Assembly (NCBI RefSeq): GCF_011516825.1
Contig: NZ_WOTA01000005.1
Location: 124,001 to 188,000, forward strand
DNA: 64,000 nucleotides
DNA from: Acetobacter oeni
GTDB taxonomy: Bacteria; Pseudomonadota; Alphaproteobacteria; Acetobacterales; Acetobacteraceae
Direction: 5' to 3'
Shown here in pieces: positions 51,202 to 63,983 of this stretch. The notes below the pieces were generated by a model. It was not told where the DNA came from. It was given only the letters and a program-made list of their open reading frames with translations, and did not search any database. Positions within the stretch are counted from its first letter, which is position 1. Every line of letters begins with the position of its first letter. The translations under genes were made by a program, and so were the position numbers.

Positions 51202-53436
51202 TCAGGCGCCGGGCATGATCGGAAGAGTGCGATACCGTTTCCCGGTCGCATGGAAAATGGCGTTGGCAATGGCCGCCGCCGTGCCGCACATGCCGATCTC
51301 ACCCACGCCCTTGATCCCCAGTGGGCTGACTTCCTCGTCTTTTTCATCGACAAACAGAACATCCATCTCCGGAATGTCCGCATGAGACGGAATGTGATAT
51401 TCCGAGAAATTATGGTTCATGAACCGCCCGTAGCGCTCATCCATCAGGGATTCTTCATGCAGCGCCATTCCGGTCGCCATCACCATCGCGCCGCGCACCT
51501 GACTGGCCGCCGTTTTCGGATTCATGATGCGCCCCGCTGCCACAGCGTTCACAAGACGCGTCACGCGGACAATGCCCAGCTCCTCATCGACTCGCACCTC
51601 ACAAAAGACCGCGCTGTGGGTAAACCGGGCCTTCCGCATCTCGCTGATCTTGCCCCGCAGCCCCGGTTTCGCGGTTTCTTCCGCTTCGATAGAGGCCTCC
51701 CCGATGAAAGATAAAGCTTCCTGAAGAGAAAAAACCTCGCGGCGACCATCCCTGACGCCGCGCAGCTCCCCCTCCGTCAGTGTGACTTCACTCTGCCTTA
51801 TCCGCTCGGGCGTATTTTCACTTTTTGCCAGTGCCTTCAGGAATTTTTCACGCAGACTCTGACACGCAAGCCAGACGGCGGCCCCGGCCGATGCCGCCGT
51901 CCATGAGCCGCCCTCCGTCGGGCATTCCGGCAGAGTGGAATCTCCCAGCTCAATATCGATCCGGTCGATCGGAATACCGAACGCCTCCGACGCCGTCTGA
52001 GCCAGGATCGTATAGGTGCCGGTGCCGATATCCGAGGCGGGGGTCGCGATATGGAGCCGCCCGTCGGATGTGAGCCTGGCCCGCGCGGCCGTGGGAGAAA
52101 ACATCGCATCCCATATGCCGATCGCCATCCCGTGGCCGATAAACTCCCTGCCGTCGCGCAGACTGCGCGGCGCAGGCGGGCGTCCATTCCAGCCAAACCG
52201 TTCCGCGCCCTGCAGCAGCGCTTCCCGCAAAGCGTTGCTGGTGAGCGGCATGTTATGCATGGCGTCAATCTCTGAATAATTGTGCAGGCGGAACGCCAGC
52301 GGGTCCATTCCGCAGGCCCAGGCCAGTTCATCAATCGCCATTTCGAAAAGGTTGACGCCGGTTGCAGCACCCGGTGCGCGCATATCACTGGAAGTATAGG
52401 TGTCGCGCGGCGCTATTTTATAATCCGCCGTCGCGTTCGGGCATTTATAACCGATCGGTCCCCAGATAACGAGATTTTCCATATTGTGCTCAAAGCGCGA
52501 CGTATCGGTGACGCCCTCGACAATGATGGATTGCAGGGTTCCGTCCCTGTCAGCCGCCAGCGCAATATCCATGACCGCTTCCGGCCTGAAAACATGCGTG
52601 AACATCTGCGGTCGCGTCAGGGTCACGCGAATCGGACGCTTCAGCATCTTTGCGCCAAGCGCTGCAAGAAAAACATTGTGCTGTGCACGCAATCCGGAAC
52701 CGAACGCACCGCCTACATAAGGATTGCGTACACGCACTTCGTTTCCGGAAAGTGACAGAGCACTCGCCAGATAAGTCTGAACTGCCTGAGGCCCCTGTGT
52801 CTTGTCCCACACCGTCAACGTGCAATCCTCTTCAGGAATGACGGTCGTGGCATGCATCTCCATCGGATTGTGATGTTCCGGAGCAAGATGAAAGCGCCCC
52901 TCGATCTTTATCGGACTCAAAGCATATGCTTCGGAAGCATTTCCTCGTGTTTTCGGCGGGACATAATTGCTGCGTGTTTTTGACGGCATGTATTTCTGAT
53001 ACAGGGCAGCATCGAAATCAGCATTATGCGGCCAGCGCTCGTAATCAACCTGAATCAGCATCGCTGCCTCACGCGCCGCCTCGAACGTCTCTGCGAAGAC
53101 TACGGCGACCGGCTGCCCGTTGAAATGAATTTCACCGTCATGAAGAGGCCTGTAAGGCGATCCCGGCACGCCCAGCCCATCTACATAGGATTTTTCAAAT
53201 AATGCCGTGTGTGGGCGATTATGATGCGTCATAACCTCAATCACACCGGGAACCGCGCGCGCCGCCTCATCATGGATAGCCTCGATGCGGCCCCGCGCGA
53301 TCAGACTGTTGACGATAACCCCATACAGCAGACCCGGCGGATGAGGCTCAGCCGCATAGGTCGCCTGCCCGGTCACCTTGGCAAAACCATCGATCCGCGG
53401 GACAGGCTGCCCGATATTCGCTGATACAACGTTCAC
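51202..53436 (-). CDS. paoC: aldehyde oxidoreductase molybdenum subunit (PaoC-like)
   Basis: 744 residues. Molybdenum cofactor subunit of a xanthine-oxidase-family aldehyde oxidoreductase. The hammerhead domain (about 15-130) is followed by the molybdopterin domain with VGGAFGSGL, DMRAPGAATGVNLFEMAID and the C-terminal catalytic KGVGEIGMCGTAAAIANAI. It is about 80 residues shorter than XdhB and closer to E. coli PaoC (YagR). No signal peptide is seen. It lies 12 bases after paoB. Confidence 0.9.
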   Translation of the reverse strand: MNVVSANIGQPVPRIDGFAKVTGQATYAAEPHPPGLLYGVIVNSLIARGRIEAIHDEAARAVPGVIEVMTHHNRPHTALFEKSYVDGLGVPGSPYRPLHDGEIHFNGQPVAVVFAETFEAAREAAMLIQVDYERWPHNADFDAALYQKYMPSKTRSNYVPPKTRGNASEAYALSPIKIEGRFHLAPEHHNPMEMHATTVIPEEDCTLTVWDKTQGPQAVQTYLASALSLSGNEVRVRNPYVGGAFGSGLRAQHNVFLAALGAKMLKRPIRVTLTRPQMFTHVFRPEAVMDIALAADRDGTLQSIIVEGVTDTSRFEHNMENLVIWGPIGYKCPNATADYKIAPRDTYTSSDMRAPGAATGVNLFEMAIDELAWACGMDPLAFRLHNYSEIDAMHNMPLTSNALREALLQGAERFGWNGRPPAPRSLRDGREFIGHGMAIGIWDAMFSPTAARARLTSDGRLHIATPASDIGTGTYTILAQTASEAFGIPIDRIDIELGDSTLPECPTEGGSWTAASAGAAVWLACQSLREKFLKALAKSENTPERIRQSEVTLTEGELRGVRDGRREVFSLQEALSFIGEASIEAEETAKPGLRGKISEMRKARFTHSAVFCEVRVDEELGIVRVTRLVNAVAAGRIMNPKTAASQVRGAMVMATGMALHEESLMDERYGRFMNHNFSEYHIPSHADIPEMDVLFVDEKDEEVSPLGIKGVGEIGMCGTAAAIANAIFHATGKRYRTLPIMPGA

Positions 53437-53448
53437 ATTCCGTCTCCT

Positions 53449-54456
53449 TCAGCGGATAGTCTTGCAGGTCTGGGACTGAGGCGTGCCTTCAGCGGCCTGC
53501 CACAGCGCCCGTTCGATGACACGCGGCGCAAGCTTCAGCTTGGCGGCATTGTCACGATCCACGACGGCACCCTCCAGGATACGTTCGGCCACATCCCGGA
53601 AAAGAGAATGAGAGGGTGGTTTGTCTTTCATCAACGCTTCTGCTTCCGGCACACACCAGGGTTTTGTGCCTACGCCACCCAGCGCGAGACAACCTCGCCG
53701 GATCAGTCCACTCTCCATTTCCAGACCAACAGCAACAGACACGATTGAAAAAGCGAAAGACAGCCGATCCCGGATTTTGAGATAGGTGTAATGTTCGCCA
53801 AATGAAACTGAAGGCAAATCAATGGACGTTACTATCTCGCCCTGCTGCAGGACGTTATCGATCCAGGGCGTCTCTCCCGGCAGACGATGATAGTCACGCA
53901 GAGCCACCGATCGCTCGCCTTCCGGACCATGGAGATTAACCATTGCATTCAGAGCCGCGAGGGCGACGCACATATCTGACGGAAATGTTGCAATACAAGC
54001 CTCACTCGTTCCCAGCACAGCCATGATACGGTTTCGACCACCACGGGCAGAACAGCCGGTGCCGGGTGAGCGCTTGTTGCACACCATATCCGGGTCATAA
54101 AAGTAGTGGCACCGTGTCCGCTGATTCAGATTGCCTCCATTGGTCGCTACATTCCGGATCTGGGGACTGGCACCCGCGAGAATAGCTGAGGCCAAAAGTG
54201 GTAAGTGTCTGATGACAAGAGGATGAGCTGCGGTATCGGCGTTGGTTGCCAAAGCGCCAAGACGCAGGCCGCCATCAGGCAGTTCTTCAATCTGGTTCAT
54301 GGACAGGGATTTGAGGTCAGTCACATGGGCAGGCCGCTCGACATCCGATTTCATGAGGTCGATCAGATTCGTTCCTCCAGCGAGAAAGCGCGTGTGCTCA
54401 GTGACACGGCATGCTTCATCAAAAGTACCGGGCCGCGAATACGAAAAATTCCTCAT
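53449..54456 (-). CDS. paoB: aldehyde oxidoreductase FAD and 4Fe-4S subunit (PaoB-like)
   Basis: 335 residues. FAD-binding CO-dehydrogenase-flavoprotein domain (FLAGGTNLIDLMK, ATNGGNLNQRTRC) with an inserted cluster motif. Cys116, Cys126 and Cys135 are in the RCHYFYDPDMVCNKRSPGTG segment and its neighbour, with Cys154 completing a 4Fe-4S site. This cluster is the mark of PaoB-type subunits and is absent from xanthine dehydrogenases such as XdhA in this window. Its start overlaps the paoA stop by 4 bases. Confidence 0.92.
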   Translation of the reverse strand: MRNFSYSRPGTFDEACRVTEHTRFLAGGTNLIDLMKSDVERPAHVTDLKSLSMNQIEELPDGGLRLGALATNADTAAHPLVIRHLPLLASAILAGASPQIRNVATNGGNLNQRTRCHYFYDPDMVCNKRSPGTGCSARGGRNRIMAVLGTSEACIATFPSDMCVALAALNAMVNLHGPEGERSVALRDYHRLPGETPWIDNVLQQGEIVTSIDLPSVSFGEHYTYLKIRDRLSFAFSIVSVAVGLEMESGLIRRGCLALGGVGTKPWCVPEAEALMKDKPPSHSLFRDVAERILEGAVVDRDNAAKLKLAPRVIERALWQAAEGTPQSQTCKTIR

Positions 54457-54959
54457 GCGGCCTCTCCCTTGCTGTCCTGATCTTGTTGAGCAATGACGTG
54501 CTCTATAGCCTCGACAATGCCGTTATAGGCCCCGCATCGACAGAGATTGCCGCTCATGAACTCACGGATCTCTTCGCGGGAATGGGCATGGTCCTCTTCC
54601 AGCAAGGCGATGGCCGACATGATCTGTCCCGGTGTGCAGTAACCGCACTGGAATGCATCAGCGTCGATGAAAGCCTGTTGCATCGGGTGCAACTGACCGT
54701 CCTGATTGATGCCTTCAATGGTTATGACGGCAGCGTCCGGTATCGAGACGGCAAGTACGAGGCAACTTTTGACACGTTTTCCGTCAATGAGCACAGTGCA
54801 TGCACCGCATTGTCCGTGATCGCATCCCTTTTTGGTCCCGGTAAGGTCGAGCCGTTCCCGTAGCAGGTCCAGCAATGTGACGGATGGCGGCAGGTCAGCG
54901 GCATAGTGCTGTCCATTGATCCGGAGACGACAGGGAGCCGTGGGGGATGCGTGGTTCAT
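54453..54959 (-). CDS. paoA: aldehyde oxidoreductase 2Fe-2S subunit (PaoA-like)
   Basis: 168 residues. Two 2Fe-2S clusters: plant-type Cys46, Cys51, Cys54 and Cys66, and a second set in QCGYCTPGQ and NLCRCGAYNG. E. coli PaoA has a long Tat signal peptide that takes the enzyme to the periplasm; here the domain starts within the first ten residues, so the complex is probably cytoplasmic. It is the first gene of paoABC followed by the cysteine hydrolase. Confidence 0.9.
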   Translation of the reverse strand: MNHASPTAPCRLRINGQHYAADLPPSVTLLDLLRERLDLTGTKKGCDHGQCGACTVLIDGKRVKSCLVLAVSIPDAAVITIEGINQDGQLHPMQQAFIDADAFQCGYCTPGQIMSAIALLEEDHAHSREEIREFMSGNLCRCGAYNGIVEAIEHVIAQQDQDSKGEAA

Positions 54960-55548
54960 GAGAAATTGCTCCTGCGGATATCAGGTTCTGCAGGTTTAAG
55001 GATTTGAGAAGCCATGAGTTGCGCTTCGCATGCGAAAACGATGAATAAAAGTTTCTTTTCTCTACTGGATGATGTTTAGCTGCCAGCCGTCACCATAATC
55101 GGCAAACTCCTATGCTCCATGAATGAACGTGTAGGGGATATTTTAGAGTATTTTATATATAGTTTTTGATATTGCTTTCATGAATAATGTAGAAAATGCG
55201 TCTGTAGGTGCCTGAATGAGCGCATCTTGTCATGTTGTGCTCTGCACAAGTCGATACCGAGATGCATTCCACTTGCGTTCTCTTTATGTATTCAAAAAAA
55301 CATTATCTATGTTCAGATGTATTCCTATTCAGTCAAATTGTATGTCTCCGTAGCATAGTCAATATTGCACAGAAAATGTATTGATCATGAATTACAAAAG
55401 ACGTGTTCGTGTTTTATTGTAATGCGTTATCTTTCTAAAGAATTCGTAACTTTCGATGAATCTTTGAAACCTCGTTCAAACAGAATGGTTTGTTGTAATG
55501 ACGGCCGTATCCGTGACCGTCTTAATATTGGAAACGAGGAATAGAAAA
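54960..55548. other. AT-rich divergent regulatory region
   Basis: About 590 bases between the divergent paoA and hydrophilic-repeat genes, much more AT-rich than its surroundings. It must hold both promoters. I looked for an alphaproteobacterial stress-sigma (EcfG-type) promoter before 55549 and did not find a convincing one. No RNA gene or clear operator seen. Confidence 0.45.
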
Positions 55549-55827
55549 ATGGCAAATCAAGGTGGTAGTCACGAACAGCATGTCAAGGCTGGCGAACAGA
55601 GCCACAAGAACACTGGCACGTCGCATGACGAAAAGAATGAAGGTGAGCATGGCTCCGGCACGAGAGGCGGCACTCACGAGCAGCACGTCAAAGCTGGTGA
55701 GCAGAGCCACAAGAATGCAGGCACATCGCATAGCGAGAAAGAGGAAGGCGAGCATGGCTCCGGCACGCGGGGCGGCACGCATGAGCAACATGTCAAAGCA
55801 GGCCAGCAGAGCCACAAAAATAGTTGA
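55549..55827 (+). CDS. hydrophilic repeat stress protein
   Basis: 92 residues, almost no hydrophobic residues, rich in Gly, His, Glu, Lys and Ser. After MANQ there are two complete 35-residue units (each GG-S/T-HEQHVKAGEQSHKN followed by a GTSH.EK.EGEHGSGTR linker) and a third partial one of 18 residues. The RGG..EQH.KAG..SHKN pattern recalls KGG/con-10 stress proteins and plant hydrophilins that protect proteins and membranes during drying or osmotic stress. The start has a GAGGA ribosome-binding site 9 bases upstream. Followed by a strong palindrome and a YciF-like gene. Confidence 0.75.
   Translation: MANQGGSHEQHVKAGEQSHKNTGTSHDEKNEGEHGSGTRGGTHEQHVKAGEQSHKNAGTSHSEKEEGEHGSGTRGGTHEQHVKAGQQSHKNS
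55561..55824 (+). repeat. 105-base tandem repeat inside the hydrophilic protein gene
   Basis: Two 105-base units (55561-55665, 55666-55770) and a 54-base third unit. They encode the 35-residue repeats and are also similar at the DNA level, so unit number could change by slippage or recombination. Confidence 0.8.
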
Positions 55828-55841
55828 CTCTGTGTCAGGTA

Positions 55842-55875
55842 CCGGGGACATCGGCAATATTGCTGATGTCCCCGG
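55842..55875. terminator. 34-base near-perfect palindrome between stress genes
   Basis: Arms CCGGGGACATC and GATGTCCCCGG, with an inner GCAAT/ATTGC pair and one G-T position. It folds into a very strong hairpin 15 bases after the repeat protein stop. No T run follows on either strand, so it may be a partial terminator or an mRNA stabiliser rather than a classical terminator. Confidence 0.5.
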
Positions 55876-55956
55876 AAACCGAATGCTTTCCTTAACTTAC
55901 GAACTGTCCCATACCAGTTCAGGTAAAGGGCATACGTTCGAAAATGGAGAAAATCC

Positions 55957-56460
55957 ATGGGCTTTTTTTCGAAACCGATAAGGACTCTTGACGATCTGTT
56001 TGTGCATACCCTTCAGGATATCTATTATGCTGAAAATCAGATCGTGAAGAATTTGCCCACAATGGTGGAAAACGCTGCTGATCCGGAGCTGAAGGCGGCA
56101 TTTCAGCATCATCTGACGGAAACGGAAGAGCAGGTCCACAGACTGGAGCGGGTATTCCATATGCACGATCAGCCCGTTAAAGGGGTGACGTGTCAGGCTA
56201 TGGATGGAATCCTTGCCGAGGCAAAAGACATTATTAGTGATTGTGATGATCCTGAAGTTTGTGACGCCGCCATGCTTTCAGCCGCTCAGGCCGTAGAGCA
56301 TTATGAAATAACCCGTTATGGCAGCCTTATCGCTTATGCCATACAGCTTGGCCGTCCCGACTGTGCCGCCGTCCTGAAGCAGACGCTTGAGGAGGAAAAA
56401 TCGGCTGATCAGAAACTGACACATATCGCCGAGAAGGGTGTAAACCAGCATGCAGCCTAA
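55957..56460 (+). CDS. YciF-like (DUF892) ferritin-fold stress protein
   Basis: 167 residues. DUF892 family: RTLDDLFVHTLQDIYYAENQIVKNLP at the start, a helix with HLTETEEQVHRLERVF, and AAQAVEHYEITRYGSLIAYA and EEEKSADQKLTHIAEKGVNQ at the end. Glu and His residues on four helices give a ferritin-like di-metal site. YciF/YciE proteins are induced by osmotic and general stress. It follows the hydrophilic repeat gene by 129 bases and probably belongs to the same stress response. Confidence 0.9.
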   Translation: MGFFSKPIRTLDDLFVHTLQDIYYAENQIVKNLPTMVENAADPELKAAFQHHLTETEEQVHRLERVFHMHDQPVKGVTCQAMDGILAEAKDIISDCDDPEVCDAAMLSAAQAVEHYEITRYGSLIAYAIQLGRPDCAAVLKQTLEEEKSADQKLTHIAEKGVNQHAA

Positions 56461-56862: not shown

Positions 56863-58650
56863 ATGAACGTCAGCGAATTCCTATGGAAACGTCTCCAGGA
56901 ATGGGGTCTCAAACGTGCTTATGGCTATCCGGGTGACGGTGCCGGAGGCATTGATATTGCTCTGCAACGGGAAGTTGACGCAGGTCGCGTCGAATATATC
57001 CAGGTAAGACATGAAGAGATGGCGGCATTCATGGCAACGGCCCATGCAAAATTTACCGGGCAGGTGGGGCTCTGTTTCGCCACGTCAGGACCTGGTGCGA
57101 TCCATCTTCTGAACGGGCTTTATGATGCCAAACTCGACCATGTTGGCGTCGTGGCGATCATGGGGCAGCAGGCACGAACGGCAATTGGCTCGAATTATCA
57201 GCAGGAAGTCGATTTGCAATCGCTCTGCAAGGATGTGGCTTGCGAATACATCGTGACGGTGACAGAACCGTCACAGATGCGGCATGCCATTGATCGTGCC
57301 GTACGCATTGCCCGCGATAAACGCTCCCCTACGGTCGTCATTGTTCCCAATGATTTGCAGGAGTTATCCTATTCCGAGCCGCCGATGGAGCATGGTTCGA
57401 CCCATACAGGCATTGGAACGACAATCGGAAGCAAAGTGCCGGAGGACGCAGGTCTCCGTGCGGCAGCTGATATTCTGAATGCTGGAAAGAGGGTCGCCAT
57501 CCTTGCGGGAGCAGGTGCTCTTGAGGCAACGGATGAGTTGCTGGAGATCGCAGAAATTCTCGGTGCTGGCATCGCCAAGGCGCTTCTGGGAAAAGCCGCT
57601 GTTCCGGATGAACTGCCTTTCGTCACGGGTTCGATCGGTCTGCTAGGTACAAAACCTTCATGGGATCTCATGAAGGAATGTGACACGTTTCTGATGGTGG
57701 GATCATCGTTTCCCTATAGTGAATTCCTGCCAAGGCCGGGGCAGGCGCGTGGGGTGCAGATCGACATCAACGGCGCCAACCTTTCTCTGCGTTATCCAAT
57801 GGAGATCAACCTTCAGGGTGATAGCGCCGCAACCCTGCGCGCTCTGATCCCGCTGCTTCAGCGCAACAATGACCGGTCGTGGCGCACGCAGATCGAGAAA
57901 GAAGTTGCCGATTGGTGGAAAGTTCTGGAAGCGCGGGCCATGACCAGTGCTCAGCCCCTCAATCCACAGCGTGTGTTCTGGGAGCTTTCACCACGTTTAC
58001 CCGAGAACGCCATCATTACCGCTGACTCCGGCTCGGTCGCCAACTGGTATGCGCGTGATCTCAAAATGCGTCGTGGAATGAAAGCCTCTCTTTCAGGTGG
58101 GCTGGCGTCGCTTGGCGCGGGGACACCCTACGCGATGGCAGGAAAGATGGCTTATCCTGAGCGCACCGTCATTGCCTGCATGGGGGATGGCGCCATGCAG
58201 ATGAACGGTCTGAATGTGATGATCACGATTTCCAAATACTGGAAACAATGGTCCAATCCGAAACTGATTGTTCTTGTTCTCAACAATCAGGATCTCAGTC
58301 AGGTAACATGGGAAGAGCGTATCCAGCTCGGTAAAGGGAAGACGGAATCCACACAGTCCATTCCGGATTTTCCCTATCACAAATACGCCGAACTACTGGA
58401 CCTGAAAGGCATCTGTGTCGATGATCCAGAAAAAGTGGCGGCTGCCTGGGACGAAGCTTTGAGCGCCGACCGTCCGGTTATTCTTGAAGCACGCACGGAC
58501 CCAAACGTGCCACCGCTGCCACCACATATCACCCTGCAGCAGGCAAAGGCGTTCCTCTCCTCCCTGCCGACGGAACCCGAGCGTGCCAGTGTCATCATTG
58601 GATCGGCGAAGGAAATGCTGGCCTCCATCCTGCCTTCGCACAAATCGTGA
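56863..58650 (+). CDS. thiamine diphosphate enzyme (pyruvate oxidase/acetolactate synthase-like)
   Basis: 595 residues. Three-domain ThDP enzyme. The N-terminal Pyr domain has the catalytic Glu51 (VRHEEMAAFMA). The middle domain binds a nucleotide or FAD-like ligand (VAILAGAGAL). The C-terminal PP domain has the ThDP/Mg motif GDG (441-443) with NN at 474-475. It is nearest to the group annotated as ThDP-requiring or pyruvate-oxidase-like proteins; FAD binding and the substrate are unproven. The start follows GAGGAG by 6 bases. Its TGA overlaps the GTG of the next gene (GTGA), showing coupling to an enolase-superfamily enzyme. Confidence 0.88.
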   Translation: MNVSEFLWKRLQEWGLKRAYGYPGDGAGGIDIALQREVDAGRVEYIQVRHEEMAAFMATAHAKFTGQVGLCFATSGPGAIHLLNGLYDAKLDHVGVVAIMGQQARTAIGSNYQQEVDLQSLCKDVACEYIVTVTEPSQMRHAIDRAVRIARDKRSPTVVIVPNDLQELSYSEPPMEHGSTHTGIGTTIGSKVPEDAGLRAAADILNAGKRVAILAGAGALEATDELLEIAEILGAGIAKALLGKAAVPDELPFVTGSIGLLGTKPSWDLMKECDTFLMVGSSFPYSEFLPRPGQARGVQIDINGANLSLRYPMEINLQGDSAATLRALIPLLQRNNDRSWRTQIEKEVADWWKVLEARAMTSAQPLNPQRVFWELSPRLPENAIITADSGSVANWYARDLKMRRGMKASLSGGLASLGAGTPYAMAGKMAYPERTVIACMGDGAMQMNGLNVMITISKYWKQWSNPKLIVLVLNNQDLSQVTWEERIQLGKGKTESTQSIPDFPYHKYAELLDLKGICVDDPEKVAAAWDEALSADRPVILEARTDPNVPPLPPHITLQQAKAFLSSLPTEPERASVIIGSAKEMLASILPSHKS

Positions 58651-59750
58651 ATTATTCCGATATCTCTGTTGATGGCGTAACAGCGCAGGCTTTTACGCTT
58701 CCGACTGACAGCCCGGAAGCCGATGGCACTATGGCGTGGTCGGCCACAACGATCATCGCCGTTCATGTCACGGCGGGAGAATGCGTCGGCCTCGGTTATA
58801 CTTATTCCGATGCTTCGGTGGCCCGTCTGATTGAGGGTTCTCTGAAGGAGAAGATCATCGGAAGCGATCCTTTTTCACCCGAAAGACTTTGGGATGAGCT
58901 TCAAACAGTCGTTCGTAATATGGGACGCGCCGGCATTGCGGCGAATGCGATCTCGGCAGTCGATACGGCGGTATGGGATCTGAAAGCGAAGCTGCTGGAC
59001 CTGCCGCTGGCCGTCCTGCTGGGAGCCCGACGCGACCATATCGAGATCTATGGGAGCGGTGGCTTCACCACCTATTCCGATCAGCAGCTTACCGAACAGC
59101 TTCACGACTGGGTGCAGCGTGACGGATGTCGTGCCGTCAAAATCAAGGTCGGAAGGGAACCGGATCGTGACCGGCATCGTCTTGCAGTGGCGCGTCAGGC
59201 AATTGGTGACGCGGCGCTCTTCATGGATGCAAACGGGGCGCTGAATGTCAAAGAGGCTATCGCATTAGGACGCATGGCCAGGGAGGCTTATGGCGTGTGC
59301 TGGTTTGAGGAACCTGTTTCCTCGGACGATCCCGAAGGGCTTGCGCTAATACGCCCGCATCTTCCGGCGCCGATGGAACTGGCCGCAGGCGAGTACATCT
59401 ATGATGTCGATAATGCACGAAATCTTCTGAGCCTTCGTTCTGTCGATGTGTTGCAGGCTGACGTCACACGATGCGGCGGCATCACCGGACTGCTTCGCGT
59501 GGCCGACCTGGCGGATATTTTCCACATCCCGTTTTCGGCCCATTGCGCGCCCGCCCTGCATCTTCATGTGCTGTGTGCCATGCGCAACCTGCGCCATCTT
59601 GAATGGTTTCACGATCATGTCCGGATCGAACAGCGACTGTTCGATGGGGCACCGATCCCGAAGAATGGAAGGATCGCTCCGGACTTTACCCGATCCGGTT
59701 GTGGCCTGGCGTTCAGACACGCTGACGCCGCGCCGTTTGCGGTCCGCTAA
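58647..59750 (+). CDS. enolase-superfamily (mandelate racemase/muconate lactonizing type) enzyme
   Basis: 367 residues with a GTG start. The N-terminal capping domain precedes the (beta/alpha)7-beta barrel. The metal ligands are Asp194, Glu221 and Glu249; the general bases are Lys165 and Lys167 (VKIKVG); His299 lies on the opposite face. The K-x-K and a late His are typical of sugar-acid dehydratases and some racemases. It abstracts a proton alpha to a carboxylate; likely substrates are aldonic acids, but this is not decided by the sequence. Overlaps the upstream gene by 4 bases and is followed after 16 bases by an unknown membrane protein. Confidence 0.85.
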   Translation: MNYSDISVDGVTAQAFTLPTDSPEADGTMAWSATTIIAVHVTAGECVGLGYTYSDASVARLIEGSLKEKIIGSDPFSPERLWDELQTVVRNMGRAGIAANAISAVDTAVWDLKAKLLDLPLAVLLGARRDHIEIYGSGGFTTYSDQQLTEQLHDWVQRDGCRAVKIKVGREPDRDRHRLAVARQAIGDAALFMDANGALNVKEAIALGRMAREAYGVCWFEEPVSSDDPEGLALIRPHLPAPMELAAGEYIYDVDNARNLLSLRSVDVLQADVTRCGGITGLLRVADLADIFHIPFSAHCAPALHLHVLCAMRNLRHLEWFHDHVRIEQRLFDGAPIPKNGRIAPDFTRSGCGLAFRHADAAPFAVR

Positions 59751-59766
59751 AGGGATCTCTGGATAG

Positions 59767-60738
59767 ATGGTCAATACCCGCACTCCTACTGGTGCTCCAC
59801 GTAACGCTCTTGCGTTGCTCGGCTCGCTGACCGGCGCGGCTCTCGTGGGCGCGCTATATTCACGTTCTCAGCCGACAGTAGCCCATTCTCCGACGAAAAC
59901 TCCGGTGCCTGATTTCGCTAAAGCCAATCTGGCAGCACGCCGCCTTAACCGGGCAGCAGGAACACTTGCGCTGTCTGTTCTGTTTGACAGCGCGCTGGAG
60001 CATTATCGGGGACAGTTCAGGAACAGGGCGATGTATACACCACTGGTGACTGCCGCCATGGCACTGGGCGTTAGCGCACATGGCACAATGGACCAGCGTC
60101 AGATGCCCCATGTGGTGCGTGACACGGTCTATGTTCTCACGGCTATTGCCGGTCTGGCCGGCACCGGCTTTCATTTGTTCAATGTGCGCAGAAAAGCTGG
60201 CGGCGTTTCGTGGCAGAACCTGTTTTATGGTGCGCCTGTCGGCGCACCGATGGCGATCGGTCTCTCCGGTCTGCTCGGTTATCTGTCGGAGCGGGTGCGG
60301 GAGACACCGTCCGGACAGACCCCCATGGTCTGGGGCCTTCCTGCCGGGCGTGTCGTCGGTATCGCGTCCGGGCTTGGTATGGCCGGGACCACAGGTGAGG
60401 CAGGGCTGCTGCATTTTCGGGGTGGGTTCCACGATCCTTTCATGTATCTGCCGGTCACCATGCCGCCGGTCACAGCGCTGGTTCTGGGGCGGACGGCGCT
60501 TGGGCCAGCAGGCACGGAGCGGCGCGCCACACGCTGGTGGCTGCGTGCCACCGCCATCCTCGGTCTGTCCGGTTCCGCCTTTCACGCCATCGGCGTCGGA
60601 CGCGACATGGGCGGATGGCGCAACTGGGAGCAGAACATTCTCAATGGGCCGCCCATACCCGCCCCACCTGCGTTTACGGGCCTGGCCCTTGCCGGTCTGG
60701 CCGCACTGAGCCTGCTGGAAAATCATCCGGATGACTGA
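59767..60738 (+). CDS. unrecognised membrane protein with an internal duplication
   Basis: 323 residues, no family recognised. After an N-terminal helix (about 13-31) the protein has two homologous halves offset by 137 residues. Half one has EHYRG..F....MY.P (His79) and GLAGTGFH...V.R..GG (His136). Half two has LHFRG..F....MY.P (His216) and GLSGSAFH...V.R..GG (His273). The two histidines are 57 residues apart in both halves. Each half ends in a W.QN...G.P..AP segment. Several stretches are hydrophobic enough for membrane helices. It lies between an enolase-type enzyme and a GMC subunit-3 gene, overlapping the latter by 8 bases. A haem-binding membrane partner of the dehydrogenase is a guess. 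Confidence 0.75.
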   Translation: MVNTRTPTGAPRNALALLGSLTGAALVGALYSRSQPTVAHSPTKTPVPDFAKANLAARRLNRAAGTLALSVLFDSALEHYRGQFRNRAMYTPLVTAAMALGVSAHGTMDQRQMPHVVRDTVYVLTAIAGLAGTGFHLFNVRRKAGGVSWQNLFYGAPVGAPMAIGLSGLLGYLSERVRETPSGQTPMVWGLPAGRVVGIASGLGMAGTTGEAGLLHFRGGFHDPFMYLPVTMPPVTALVLGRTALGPAGTERRATRWWLRATAILGLSGSAFHAIGVGRDMGGWRNWEQNILNGPPIPAPPAFTGLALAGLAALSLLENHPDD

Positions 60739-61378
60739 GCGCAATCGCTATCCCGGTTATGATGTAATGGCAAAGCGGCATTCGCTGTCGTGGAACGATG
60801 CAACCCGTAAGGTCATGGACGCCCGTCTTGGCGTTCCCCGGGAACCACGTTTCCTGCGACAGATGGAATGGGACACGCTTGTGGCGATCTGCGAGCGTAT
60901 CATTCCCCAGCCGCAGAACCGTCCTCCCATTCCGCTGGCGGCCTATATCGACCAGAAACTGCAAAATGATGCCCGTAACGGATTTCGTAACGCTGCCCTG
61001 CCGCCTCAGCGCGAAGCATGGAAAAAGGGGCTTGCTGCGTTCGAAGCCGAGGCGTGTCTGCGTTACGAACACTCTTTCCATAACCTGAAGGAAAGACAGC
61101 AGGACGAACTTCTGCATCGGGCAGAAACGGGCCAGTCGGACGCATCCGTATGGAGTGGTATGGATGCATCACTGTTTTTTTCTGAGCATGTGATGAGTGA
61201 CATCATCGCCGCCTATTATGCTCATCCGACAAGTTGGAATGAGATCGGCTTCGGAGGACCGGCCGGTCCGCGAGGATATGTTCGGATGCAGAATGGCCGG
61301 CGCGACCCATGGGAACCGGTTGAGGCGGGACCGGGTGACGAGACACGTGTTCGCAGGGAGAACCAGCGTGTCCGATGA
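60731..61378 (+). CDS. gluconate 2-dehydrogenase subunit 3-like protein
   Basis: 215 residues. The domain of about 100-150 residues includes EWDTLVAICERIIPQPQNRPPIPLA, then a helical part, and DIIAAYYAHPTSWNEIGFGGPAGPRGYVR at the C-terminus, typical of the small subunit of membrane-bound FAD dehydrogenases. In the family it usually bears a Tat signal and helps export the folded large subunit. Here the N-terminus (MTERNRYPGYDVMAKRHSL) lacks a clear Tat signal. It overlaps the preceding gene by 8 bases and the GMC gene by 11. Confidence 0.85.
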   Translation: MTERNRYPGYDVMAKRHSLSWNDATRKVMDARLGVPREPRFLRQMEWDTLVAICERIIPQPQNRPPIPLAAYIDQKLQNDARNGFRNAALPPQREAWKKGLAAFEAEACLRYEHSFHNLKERQQDELLHRAETGQSDASVWSGMDASLFFSEHVMSDIIAAYYAHPTSWNEIGFGGPAGPRGYVRMQNGRRDPWEPVEAGPGDETRVRRENQRVR

Positions 61379-63017
61379 TCCGCTGATCACACCAAGGGCT
61401 GCTCGTGGCCGCGCGCCAGACGTTTTTCATCCCGGCGCCTGGGTGCCGATGAAGGAATATCCGCAGCGTGAGCCGGTGGATTTCGTTGTGATCGGAACAG
61501 GAGCGGGGGGCGGTCCGCTCATCGCGCGGCTTGCGGAATATGGATACTCGGTGATCGGCTTCGATGCTGGTCCCTATTTCCGGCCGCTGGAGGACTTTGC
61601 TTCCGATGAAGCCAGTCAGAGCCAGCTTTTCTGGACTGACGAAAGGCTCGTTGACGGTGCCAATCCGCTAAAAATGGGTGCGAACAACAGCGGTCGGGCC
61701 GTTGGTGGCTCGACCGTGCATTATGCCATGGTCTCGCTCCGTTTCAGGCCTGAATGGTTCAGATCGCGCACCCTTCTGGGCTATGGCACCGACTGGCCGC
61801 TCGACTGGCGTGAGATGTGGCGTTATTACGCGCAGGCAGAACATGATCTGTCTATTGCCGGACCGGTTTCCTATCCCTGGGGGCCGAAACGGCCTCGTTA
61901 TCCCTATCGTGCTCACGAAATCAATGGTGCTGCGGAAGTGCTGGCACGGGGCGCTGAGGCCATGGGCTATAAATGGGCAGAAACGCCGCTGGCGACGGTT
62001 TCCGCTCCGCGCGGAGATTCTCCTTCCTGTGTTTATCGTGGCTTTTGTCGTGTTGGCTGCTCGACAAACGCTAAGCAGAGCCAGCTTGTTACCTACATTC
62101 CACGAGCGCTCGCGGCAGGCGCGGAAATCCGTGACCTTGCAATGGTGGGGCGGATCGAGGTCGATGCGGCAGGACGGGCATGCGGCGTTCACTATCACCG
62201 CAACGGAGCATGGCACTTTCAGGCGGCCAGAAATGTCATCGTGGCTGGGTACGCAATTGAAACGCCGCGCCTGCTGCTTAACTCCGCGACTGACCGGTTT
62301 CGTGACGGGCTTGCCAACAGTTCAGGTCTTGTGGGTCGTTATCTGATGACGCAATCGAATCAGGCCGTTTATGGCGTGATGGATGAAATGGTCCGATGGA
62401 ACAAAGGGCCGCCCTCACTGACCATTACCGAGCACTGGAACTATGATGACCGAAAGGACTTCCATGGCGGCTATTGCTGGATGGCGCAGGGGCCGCTGCC
62501 GGTCGAATGGTCCGCTGCCATGTCGGGTTCCCGCAAATTATGGGGTGCACCACTGCGTGAAAAGATGGCGGATTATAATCATCAGGTCGGACTGAAAATG
62601 GTTGGAGAAATGTTGCCGCATCCTGACAACAGGGTCTCTCTTGCCAACGAAAAGGACCGGTATGGCCTGCCCGTCGCACGCGTGACCTATTCCTGGCACG
62701 ATAACGACAAAGCCATGATTCAGCATGCTCTTGGCGAAATGCAACGCAGTCTGGAACTGGTCGGGGCAAAAGACATCTGGCGGCAGGAAAACGATACGAA
62801 CCATCTGGCGGGCACTGCACGCATGGGGAACGATCGGAAGAGCAGTGTGGTGAATGCCGATTGTCGGAGCTGGGATATTCCCAATTTATGGATCTGTGAT
62901 GGATCCGTGTTCCCAACAACGGGTGGTGTCAATCCATCGCTGACCATCACGGCCATTGCGTTACGGACCGCAGACCGGATTCAGATGCTGCAACAGACAG
63001 GGCAATTGAACTTCTGA
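61368..63017 (+). CDS. GMC family oxidoreductase (large FAD subunit)
   Basis: 549 residues from GTG 61368, supported by GGGAG 7 bases upstream; earlier frame lies over subunit 3. FAD is bound by VIGTGAGGGPLIA (about residues 41-53). The substrate domain has CRVGCSTNAKQS, and the C-terminus has the active-site NHLAGTARMG and a conserved Asn in GGVNPSLTITAIALRTAD. This matches the large subunit of gluconate/sorbitol-type membrane-bound dehydrogenases, which oxidise sugars or sugar acids in the periplasm. The usual third subunit, a multi-haem cytochrome c, is not encoded next to it. Confidence 0.9.
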   Translation: MSDDPLITPRAARGRAPDVFHPGAWVPMKEYPQREPVDFVVIGTGAGGGPLIARLAEYGYSVIGFDAGPYFRPLEDFASDEASQSQLFWTDERLVDGANPLKMGANNSGRAVGGSTVHYAMVSLRFRPEWFRSRTLLGYGTDWPLDWREMWRYYAQAEHDLSIAGPVSYPWGPKRPRYPYRAHEINGAAEVLARGAEAMGYKWAETPLATVSAPRGDSPSCVYRGFCRVGCSTNAKQSQLVTYIPRALAAGAEIRDLAMVGRIEVDAAGRACGVHYHRNGAWHFQAARNVIVAGYAIETPRLLLNSATDRFRDGLANSSGLVGRYLMTQSNQAVYGVMDEMVRWNKGPPSLTITEHWNYDDRKDFHGGYCWMAQGPLPVEWSAAMSGSRKLWGAPLREKMADYNHQVGLKMVGEMLPHPDNRVSLANEKDRYGLPVARVTYSWHDNDKAMIQHALGEMQRSLELVGAKDIWRQENDTNHLAGTARMGNDRKSSVVNADCRSWDIPNLWICDGSVFPTTGGVNPSLTITAIALRTADRIQMLQQTGQLNF

Positions 63018-63188
63018 TCTTTGCGATGGGGGCGGGAAGAAGAGTTCTCTACTGATATTTTGCGTGCCAATTATGTAATAATGAGTGTTTTAATATTATT
63101 AAACAGGCAAGAAAGACATAACGCAACTCCCGAAGGTAAGGCGCTTTATGGTGGTGAGCATGGCACATACTGATTGAAAGGACAGACT

Positions 63189-63983
63189 ATGTCGTTTCTT
63201 CATAACTTTACCTGTCGACGCTGTTTTAACCGTACACTTACCGCAGCCCTTGTTGCTGCTCCGGTTTCGGCCATCATTGGACGCAAAGCTGATGCAGCAG
63301 ATAAAAACATAGCGCCCGTCCCGGGAAGTCCGAAAACAGTAAAAAGCCATGTTCTCGACACAGCGGCTGATGCTTTGCAGGTGAAAAAACCGATTGATGC
63401 CATGAGTGAGTATCTGAATGGATTTCACTTTTATGCTGATGACATGGGACGACAGATCGAAGCCAATCATTTCTGTACGCATTTGACTGAGGATTTCCAT
63501 CAATGCGTCATTTATGAAGCGAATCAGACAAACGCCCGACTTATTGGTGTTGAATATATTGTCAGCGAAAGAATATTTAAAACTCTTCCTGAAGATGAAA
63601 AGAAATTGTGGCATAGCCACCAGTATGAGGTGAAATCAGGAATGCTTGTCGCCCCCGATGTTCCCAATCCAGCGGAACATGCTTTCATGACGGATCTCGT
63701 GACAACTTACGGGAAAACATGGCACACTTGGCAGATAGATCGGGATCATGATCTTCCCCTTGGCATCCCTCAATTGATGATGGGGTTTACCAAAGATGGT
63801 CAGATACAACAGTCCTTTCTGGATGATCGGGACAGGCGTTTCGGGCTTTCCACTCAGAGTGAAAGAAAGAACCGTGCCGATATACCAACGCCGGATGTCG
63901 CGGTGGGCGCAAACTCGTGGGAGAGCGGTACAGTGCCTCAATTGCAGCTTGTGGAAATGCCGGTAAAAAATATCAAAAAATGA
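63189..63983 (+). CDS. DUF1264 (oil-body-associated-like) protein with export signal
   Basis: 264 residues. The N-terminus has CRRCFNRTLTAALVAAPVSA, a Tat-like arginine pair (Arg10, Arg11) plus a hydrophobic stretch, with a likely cleavage near ADA (34-36). The rest matches DUF1264: GFHFYADDMGRQIEANHFC, LTEDFHQCVIY, LIGVEYIVSERIFKTLP, LWHSHQYEVKSG and WHTWQIDRDHDLPLG. Related plant proteins are linked to seed oil bodies and drying; bacterial function is unknown. ATG 63189 follows AAAGGA by 7 bases. It is separate from the operon before it (171-base gap). Confidence 0.82.
   Translation: MSFLHNFTCRRCFNRTLTAALVAAPVSAIIGRKADAADKNIAPVPGSPKTVKSHVLDTAADALQVKKPIDAMSEYLNGFHFYADDMGRQIEANHFCTHLTEDFHQCVIYEANQTNARLIGVEYIVSERIFKTLPEDEKKLWHSHQYEVKSGMLVAPDVPNPAEHAFMTDLVTTYGKTWHTWQIDRDHDLPLGIPQLMMGFTKDGQIQQSFLDDRDRRFGLSTQSERKNRADIPTPDVAVGANSWESGTVPQLQLVEMPVKNIKK

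Follow-up and report, generated by a model that had tools for sequence, protein, structure and literature searches.

A duplicated membrane protein with two invariant histidine pairs, encoded beside a GMC dehydrogenase in Acetobacter oeni, as a candidate electron-transfer subunit

The window, by which we mean the whole stretch of 64,000 nucleotides of Acetobacter oeni DNA that was analysed, contains an operon of five genes on the plus strand. A thiamine-diphosphate (TPP) enzyme (56863..58650, NCBIfam model PRK08273) is followed by an enolase-superfamily, mandelate racemase-like protein (58647..59750), both assigned with Pfam/NCBIfam, then by a duplicated membrane protein of 323 residues (59767..60738; delimited by its open reading frame, hydropathy and AlphaFold2 on 29 sequences), by a Gluconate_2-dh3 small subunit, here called SUB3 (60731..61378; PF13618, E 7.3e-25), and by a GMC dehydrogenase of 549 residues (61368..63017; PF00732/PF05199). 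The GTG start of the latter was set by the annotated start in Komagataeibacter; the longest open reading frame begins at 61197. Neighbouring genes overlap by 4, 8 or 11 bases, except at one junction with a gap of 16 bases; the 8-base overlap is that between the membrane gene and the small-subunit gene. None of the five genes encodes a cytochrome c, as had been noticed from the sequence, and in annotated relatives (Komagataeibacter, Nitrobacter, Caballeronia and Deinococcus peraridilitoris) the operon is likewise found without a multihaem cytochrome c subunit; cytochrome c genes do lie near the operon in the Caballeronia and Methylocystis records. The flanks of the operon (55498-56460 and 63174-63983) hold a repeat-rich hydrophilic open reading frame, a DUF892 protein and a DUF1264 protein, and are perhaps a stress-related island. 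Further upstream, at 51202-54959 on the minus strand, lie three genes with counterparts, identically ordered, on the Komagataeibacter plasmid pGX5, where the annotation is that of xanthine dehydrogenase-like subunits.

The membrane protein is internally duplicated at an offset of 137 residues. Half 1 spans residues 46-184 (59902..60318, plus strand) and half 2 residues 184-323 (60316..60735, plus strand), as delimited by comparison of the halves and, for half 2, by a model of its own. The original prediction had proposed that the two halves align without gaps and carry paired histidines 57 residues apart, and this proved correct: the gapless block of residues 79-136 against 216-273 has a BLOSUM62 score of 58 with 16/58 identities, a score reached by none of 20,000 shuffles (maximum 17), while the best 58-residue window at offsets outside 136-138 scores 11. 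BLASTP aligns half 1 with half 2 at E 1e-12 (40/116 identical), the profiles of the two halves match each other with a probability of 99.5 (E 4.6e-23), and the half-1 profile finds half 2 of the window protein at E 2.4e-16, 200 shuffled copies of that half giving 0.47 at best. A two-residue insertion ahead of the W.QN segment had also been described; half 2 does have two extra residues there, but the alignments split them into one and one. The protein has histidines at positions 40, 79, 105, 115, 136, 216, 222, 273 and 320, and no cysteine.

Conservation was measured over 66 distinct full-length proteins, the one in the window included. His79 (60001..60003, near the end of helix 1), His136 (60172..60174, helix 3, within GxxGxGFH), His216 (60412..60414, near the end of helix 5) and His273 (60583..60585, helix 7), all on the plus strand, are invariant (66/66), whereas the other histidines vary: His105 is kept in 60, His115 in 59, His222 in 32 and His320 in 19 of the 66, and His40 is variable even among four close relatives. 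The significance attached to the four histidines, and their expected constancy in homologues, is in line with these counts. Also invariant are Arg81, Gly82, Met89, Phe135, Gly276, Arg279 and most of the GPP.PAP segment. Glycines stand four and seven residues ahead of the second histidine of each half (Gly132 and Gly129, both 66/66; Gly269, 66/66, and Gly266, 65/66). The spacing between the paired histidines is exactly 57 in both halves of the window protein; across the 66 sequences it is 57 in 62 first halves, and in second halves 57 in 41 and 56 in 20, so that the positions are conserved across the family and the spacing is subject to small insertions and deletions. When 99 half-sequences were aligned jointly, with Granulicella and the single-unit relatives described below left out, the only invariant columns were H33, R35, G36, M43, G86, H90, P113, A116 and P117. 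Both histidines are thus part of the shared core of the unit.

AlphaFold2 predicts the whole protein (29 sequences) with a pLDDT of 82.9 and a pTM of 0.81. The core helices comprise residues 50-80, 87-108, 116-142 and 159-178 in half 1 and residues 193-217, 224-245, 253-280 and 302-319 in half 2; there are two short helices (149-155 and 287-293) and an N-terminal hydrophobic helix of low confidence (10-30). Half 2 modelled alone (99 rows) gives four long helices and one short one, with a pLDDT of 92.6 and a pTM of 0.87. In each half the conserved pair sits on the first and third predicted helix, at 29 and 20 residues from the helix starts in half 1 (whole model) and at 23 and 20 in half 2. Since the first and third helices of a half run the same way, the two histidines of each half would be placed at about equal depth, more evenly so in half 2. 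Moreover, the even number of core helices per half (four) should bring both pairs close to one and the same membrane face, an arrangement that would not provide a haem chain across the membrane. On the helices of His136 and His273 the conservation moment, conserved glycines included, points to the histidine (permutation P 0.009 and 0.002), while on helices 1 and 5 it lies some 110-120 degrees off His79 and His216 (P 0.74 and 0.82). Lysine and arginine count 15.1 on side A against 8.1 on the other side, and aspartate and glutamate 9.6 against 1.3; side A being richer in both charges, the cytoplasmic face is not identified by this pattern.

The protein was said to belong to no known family, and the searches bear this out. 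It matches no Pfam or NCBIfam family at E ≤ 1. Among 29 members searched against Pfam, seven weak matches were obtained, each to one or two members, none of them convincing and none a cytochrome b; the best was Acyl_transf_3 (E 0.0027, 2/29). The best match to a PDB sequence has E 0.37, and a fold search with the predicted structures returned generic helical proteins. No paper on the protein or the operon was found among those listed in searches of the open PMC library. The protein had matches in 49/397 genomes of the same family (the window's genome counted, some matches partial), in 26/150 genomes of another family, probably Burkholderiaceae, as the figures of one of its loci (L050) equal those of a Caballeronia locus (L043), in 4/385 genomes drawn from the class and in 5/398 drawn from the phylum, both of the latter samples including the window's genome and genome G116, already known. 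Plasmids gave 24 records at E ≤ 0.01, with hosts including Komagataeibacter, Nitrobacter, Bradyrhizobium, Rhizobium, Caballeronia, Burkholderia and Deinococcus, and the more distant Granulicella (27% identity) and Frondihabitans (30%). Relatives thus occur in Pseudomonadota and Deinococcota and, with the gene set, in a single plasmid record from Acidobacteriota and another from Actinomycetota. Within the genus the membrane gene is patchy: it was found in none of 36 other genomes examined, Acetobacter fallax has a copy at 99%, and the window's genome has one copy only. The gene order on pGX5 is the same as in the window, and horizontal spread is therefore likely.

The association with an adjacent GMC dehydrogenase, also part of the original prediction, is supported by the gene neighbourhoods. 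SUB3 is present at 64 and GMC at 63 of the 69 distinct loci of the membrane gene. In three of the exceptions (L022, L026 and L032) a TPP gene adjoins the membrane gene and SUB3 or GMC is found on its far side; at L021 the remaining genes are on another contig, L031 has SUB3 and then reaches the contig end, and L049 is a relic. Among 120 family genomes, the membrane protein is found in 19/19 of those with an operon-type GMC (at least 65% identity; partial in G108) against 0/12 of those with only a distant GMC paralogue (40-44%), figures which, the genomes being related, do not represent 31 independent events. The five-gene order is identical in Nitrobacter, Caballeronia and Deinococcus peraridilitoris; the Granulicella operon has an inserted cyclase gene and a GMC annotated as two overlapping pieces, and that of Methylocystis iwaonis lacks the enolase-like gene. 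Genes for GH15 and SMP-30 proteins follow the operon at one locus (L085), SMP-30 lies near it in Methylocystis, and GH15 lies near it in two Deinococcus records. A possible metabolic role would be oxidation of a sugar to its lactone, followed by the action of a lactonase and an enolase-type dehydratase.

In Deinococcus sp. D7000, Deinococcus sp. AJ005 and Frondihabitans the membrane protein consists of a single unit of 154-157 residues with one histidine pair, and adjoins SUB3 and GMC, which are fused to each other in D7000. The D7000 unit matches each half of the window protein at E 2e-13. In a tree of halves (midpoint root, short sequences) the single units and both Granulicella halves form one clade (support 0.97), separate from the groups made up of the first and of the second halves of the other proteins; a sister relation of the two Granulicella halves is not resolved within it (0.18). 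This grouping suggests a second, separate duplication in the family. That two units work together is the natural reading of the single and fused forms. Between the enolase-like and single-unit genes of D7000 (L048:5535-6927) lie an SDR gene and one whose small membrane product resembles VKOR (PF07884, E 4e-5, below the cut-off); the corresponding places in AJ005 are taken by an SDR gene and a short gene.

The closest solved structures of the GMC subunit are Burkholderia glucose dehydrogenase (6a2u_B, E 3e-52) and the large subunit of fructose dehydrogenase (E 5.2e-44). Aligned with 6a2u_B, it shows a C-x5-C-x3-C motif (62028..62060, plus strand), in which Cys221, Cys227 and Cys231 correspond to Cys212, Cys218 and Cys222, residues given as ligands of the [3Fe-4S] cluster in a report on glucose dehydrogenase (PMC6719666). 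These putative cluster ligands are kept in 68/68 covered loci, duplicates included, 6 of the 74 loci in all being without coverage. In glucose dehydrogenase, according to a further report, a haem c at 7-8 A receives the electrons of the cluster (PMC9727119). A twin-arginine motif followed by a hydrophobic stretch (>1.2) was found in 0/64 SUB3 N-terminal regions and in 0/63 of GMC, one of which (L062) is slightly hydrophobic. The cut-off of 1.2 was chosen because 1.6 would miss the control, a canonical SUB3 of the same genome that starts with RRLLLQ and has a hydrophobicity of 1.35. The canonical set on contig 10 of the window's genome (L077:3185-7033) comprises a twin-arginine small subunit, a GMC and a cytochrome c in which CXXCH occurs three times, so that both kinds of complex are encoded in this genome. 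As the soluble subunits of the operon have no recognisable twin-arginine signal, the dehydrogenase complex is probably cytoplasmic. A second GMC subtype was seen at five Acetobacteraceae loci (L078-L082), 40-44% identical and with the motif C-x2-C-x2-C-x3-C, beside a Gluconate_2-dh3 gene; the N-termini of the latter at L078-L081 have no obvious twin-arginine signal, and neither a cytochrome c nor a membrane protein of the duplicated-histidine family was recognised in the 10-kb stretches around these five loci.

Overall, our data make it probable that the membrane protein takes part in electron transfer or quinone coupling in one way or another. In this operon it most likely replaces the cytochrome c subunit and accepts the electrons, on the cytoplasmic side: a [3Fe-4S] triad requires a partner to which electrons can go, and no other candidate is seen among the products of the operon. 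The earlier proposal that the protein carries electrons in place of the missing cytochrome c is supported in part, by the invariance of the histidines, the linkage to GMC, the iron-sulphur triad and the lack of a cytochrome c; what changes is that the complex is now placed, with some probability, in the cytoplasm. Attachment of haem c is impossible, since there is no cysteine. The specific form we favour, to which we assign a probability of roughly 0.55, is that of an electron-transfer subunit of a cytoplasmic FAD dehydrogenase containing haem b. Electrons would pass from the substrate to FAD in the GMC subunit, on to its surface [3Fe-4S] cluster, from there to the membrane protein, and finally to quinone as the presumed acceptor. 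Each half would form a four-helix transmembrane bundle, in which the histidine near the end of the first helix and that in the third helix, if they face each other, could hold one haem b as bis-histidine ligands. With two haems per chain, these would be located side by side near the face where the soluble subunits are expected to dock. The single-unit relatives, which keep both histidines and adjoin SUB3 and GMC, are consistent with such haem binding. Against it, there is no match to a known b-type cytochrome by sequence and no clear one by fold, the conservation moments of helices 1 and 5 point away from His79 and His216, and the histidines of half 1 are less evenly placed.

A somewhat unlikely alternative is that the protein is a haem-free membrane anchor with a quinone site, reduced directly by the [3Fe-4S] cluster, the histidines binding quinone or transferring protons. 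All four histidines lie towards the side that is rich in loops, where Arg, Gly, Asn and Pro-rich segments are nearly invariant, and an acidic residue is found five positions ahead of the first histidine of each half (Asp74, 64/66; Glu211, 66/66), as could be expected of such a site. However, haem b sites usually have one histidine on each of two helices with small residues nearby, and the strict pairing on the first and third helices next to small residues resembles this; two similar sites also exceed the needs of one quinone site. The nearly invariant Met89 (66/66) and Met226 (65/66) leave room for other metal sites, in which Cu, Fe or Zn would be bound by the two histidines and the nearby methionine. 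This we regard as very improbable, since in half 2 of the Granulicella protein the methionine is replaced by Gln while the histidine pair is kept, the protein is without cysteine, and we know of no metal motif that it carries.

The lack of a match to any redox family would also fit a subunit that serves only for docking or structure, or a transporter of the substrate or product of the operon, and the sugar-type genes (GH15, SMP-30) beside or near the operon in some records point the same way. Such functions are nevertheless clearly unlikely in view of the paired histidines and the one strongly conserved side, of the gene overlap and co-occurrence that tie the membrane gene to the dehydrogenase, and of the acceptor that the cluster requires. 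Taking the haem b form further, it is tempting to speculate, and we do so tentatively and at less than even odds, that the protein represents an undescribed family of membrane b-type cytochromes, in which four-helix, one-haem units are paired, stay separate in Deinococcus and Frondihabitans, have been fused independently at least twice, and place two haems side by side at the cytoplasmic face, whereby a single membrane protein could serve two GMC/[3Fe-4S] dehydrogenases. If this were true, the enzyme would be similar to complex II and yet assembled from unrelated parts. A cytoplasmic GMC dehydrogenase with its own membrane acceptor would be a new entry point to the respiratory chain, and the single-unit and fused forms would allow a direct test of how a paired redox site evolved.

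Dehydrogenases of the GMC/Gluconate_2-dh3 type are known in the form of secreted, periplasmic complexes that have cytochrome c as electron acceptor and find use in glucose sensors. Compared with the FAD-dependent glucose dehydrogenase of Burkholderia, fructose dehydrogenase and gluconate 2-dehydrogenase, the operon shares the GMC catalytic subunit with its [3Fe-4S] cysteine triad and the Gluconate_2-dh3 small subunit. It differs in that no twin-arginine signal was detected in its subunits and that a cysteine-free membrane protein stands where the triheme cytochrome c subunit would be. In addition, Cys213, which forms the inter-subunit disulfide of glucose dehydrogenase (PMC6719666), corresponds to Val in the operon GMC. 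VKOR and DsbB are four-helix membrane quinone reductases, and from these the window protein differs by having no redox-active CxxC. The role proposed here is most like that of the diheme cytochrome b anchors of fumarate reductase and succinate dehydrogenase, with transfer from an iron-sulphur cluster through haem b to quinone, and glucose dehydrogenase has already been compared with fumarate reductase (PMC6719666). Sequence searches found no match between these anchors and the membrane protein, and fold searches no clear one. In fumarate reductase the two haems, proximal and distal, are stacked through the membrane, whereas the duplication in the window protein is parallel, so that its two histidine pairs should lie side by side near a single face.
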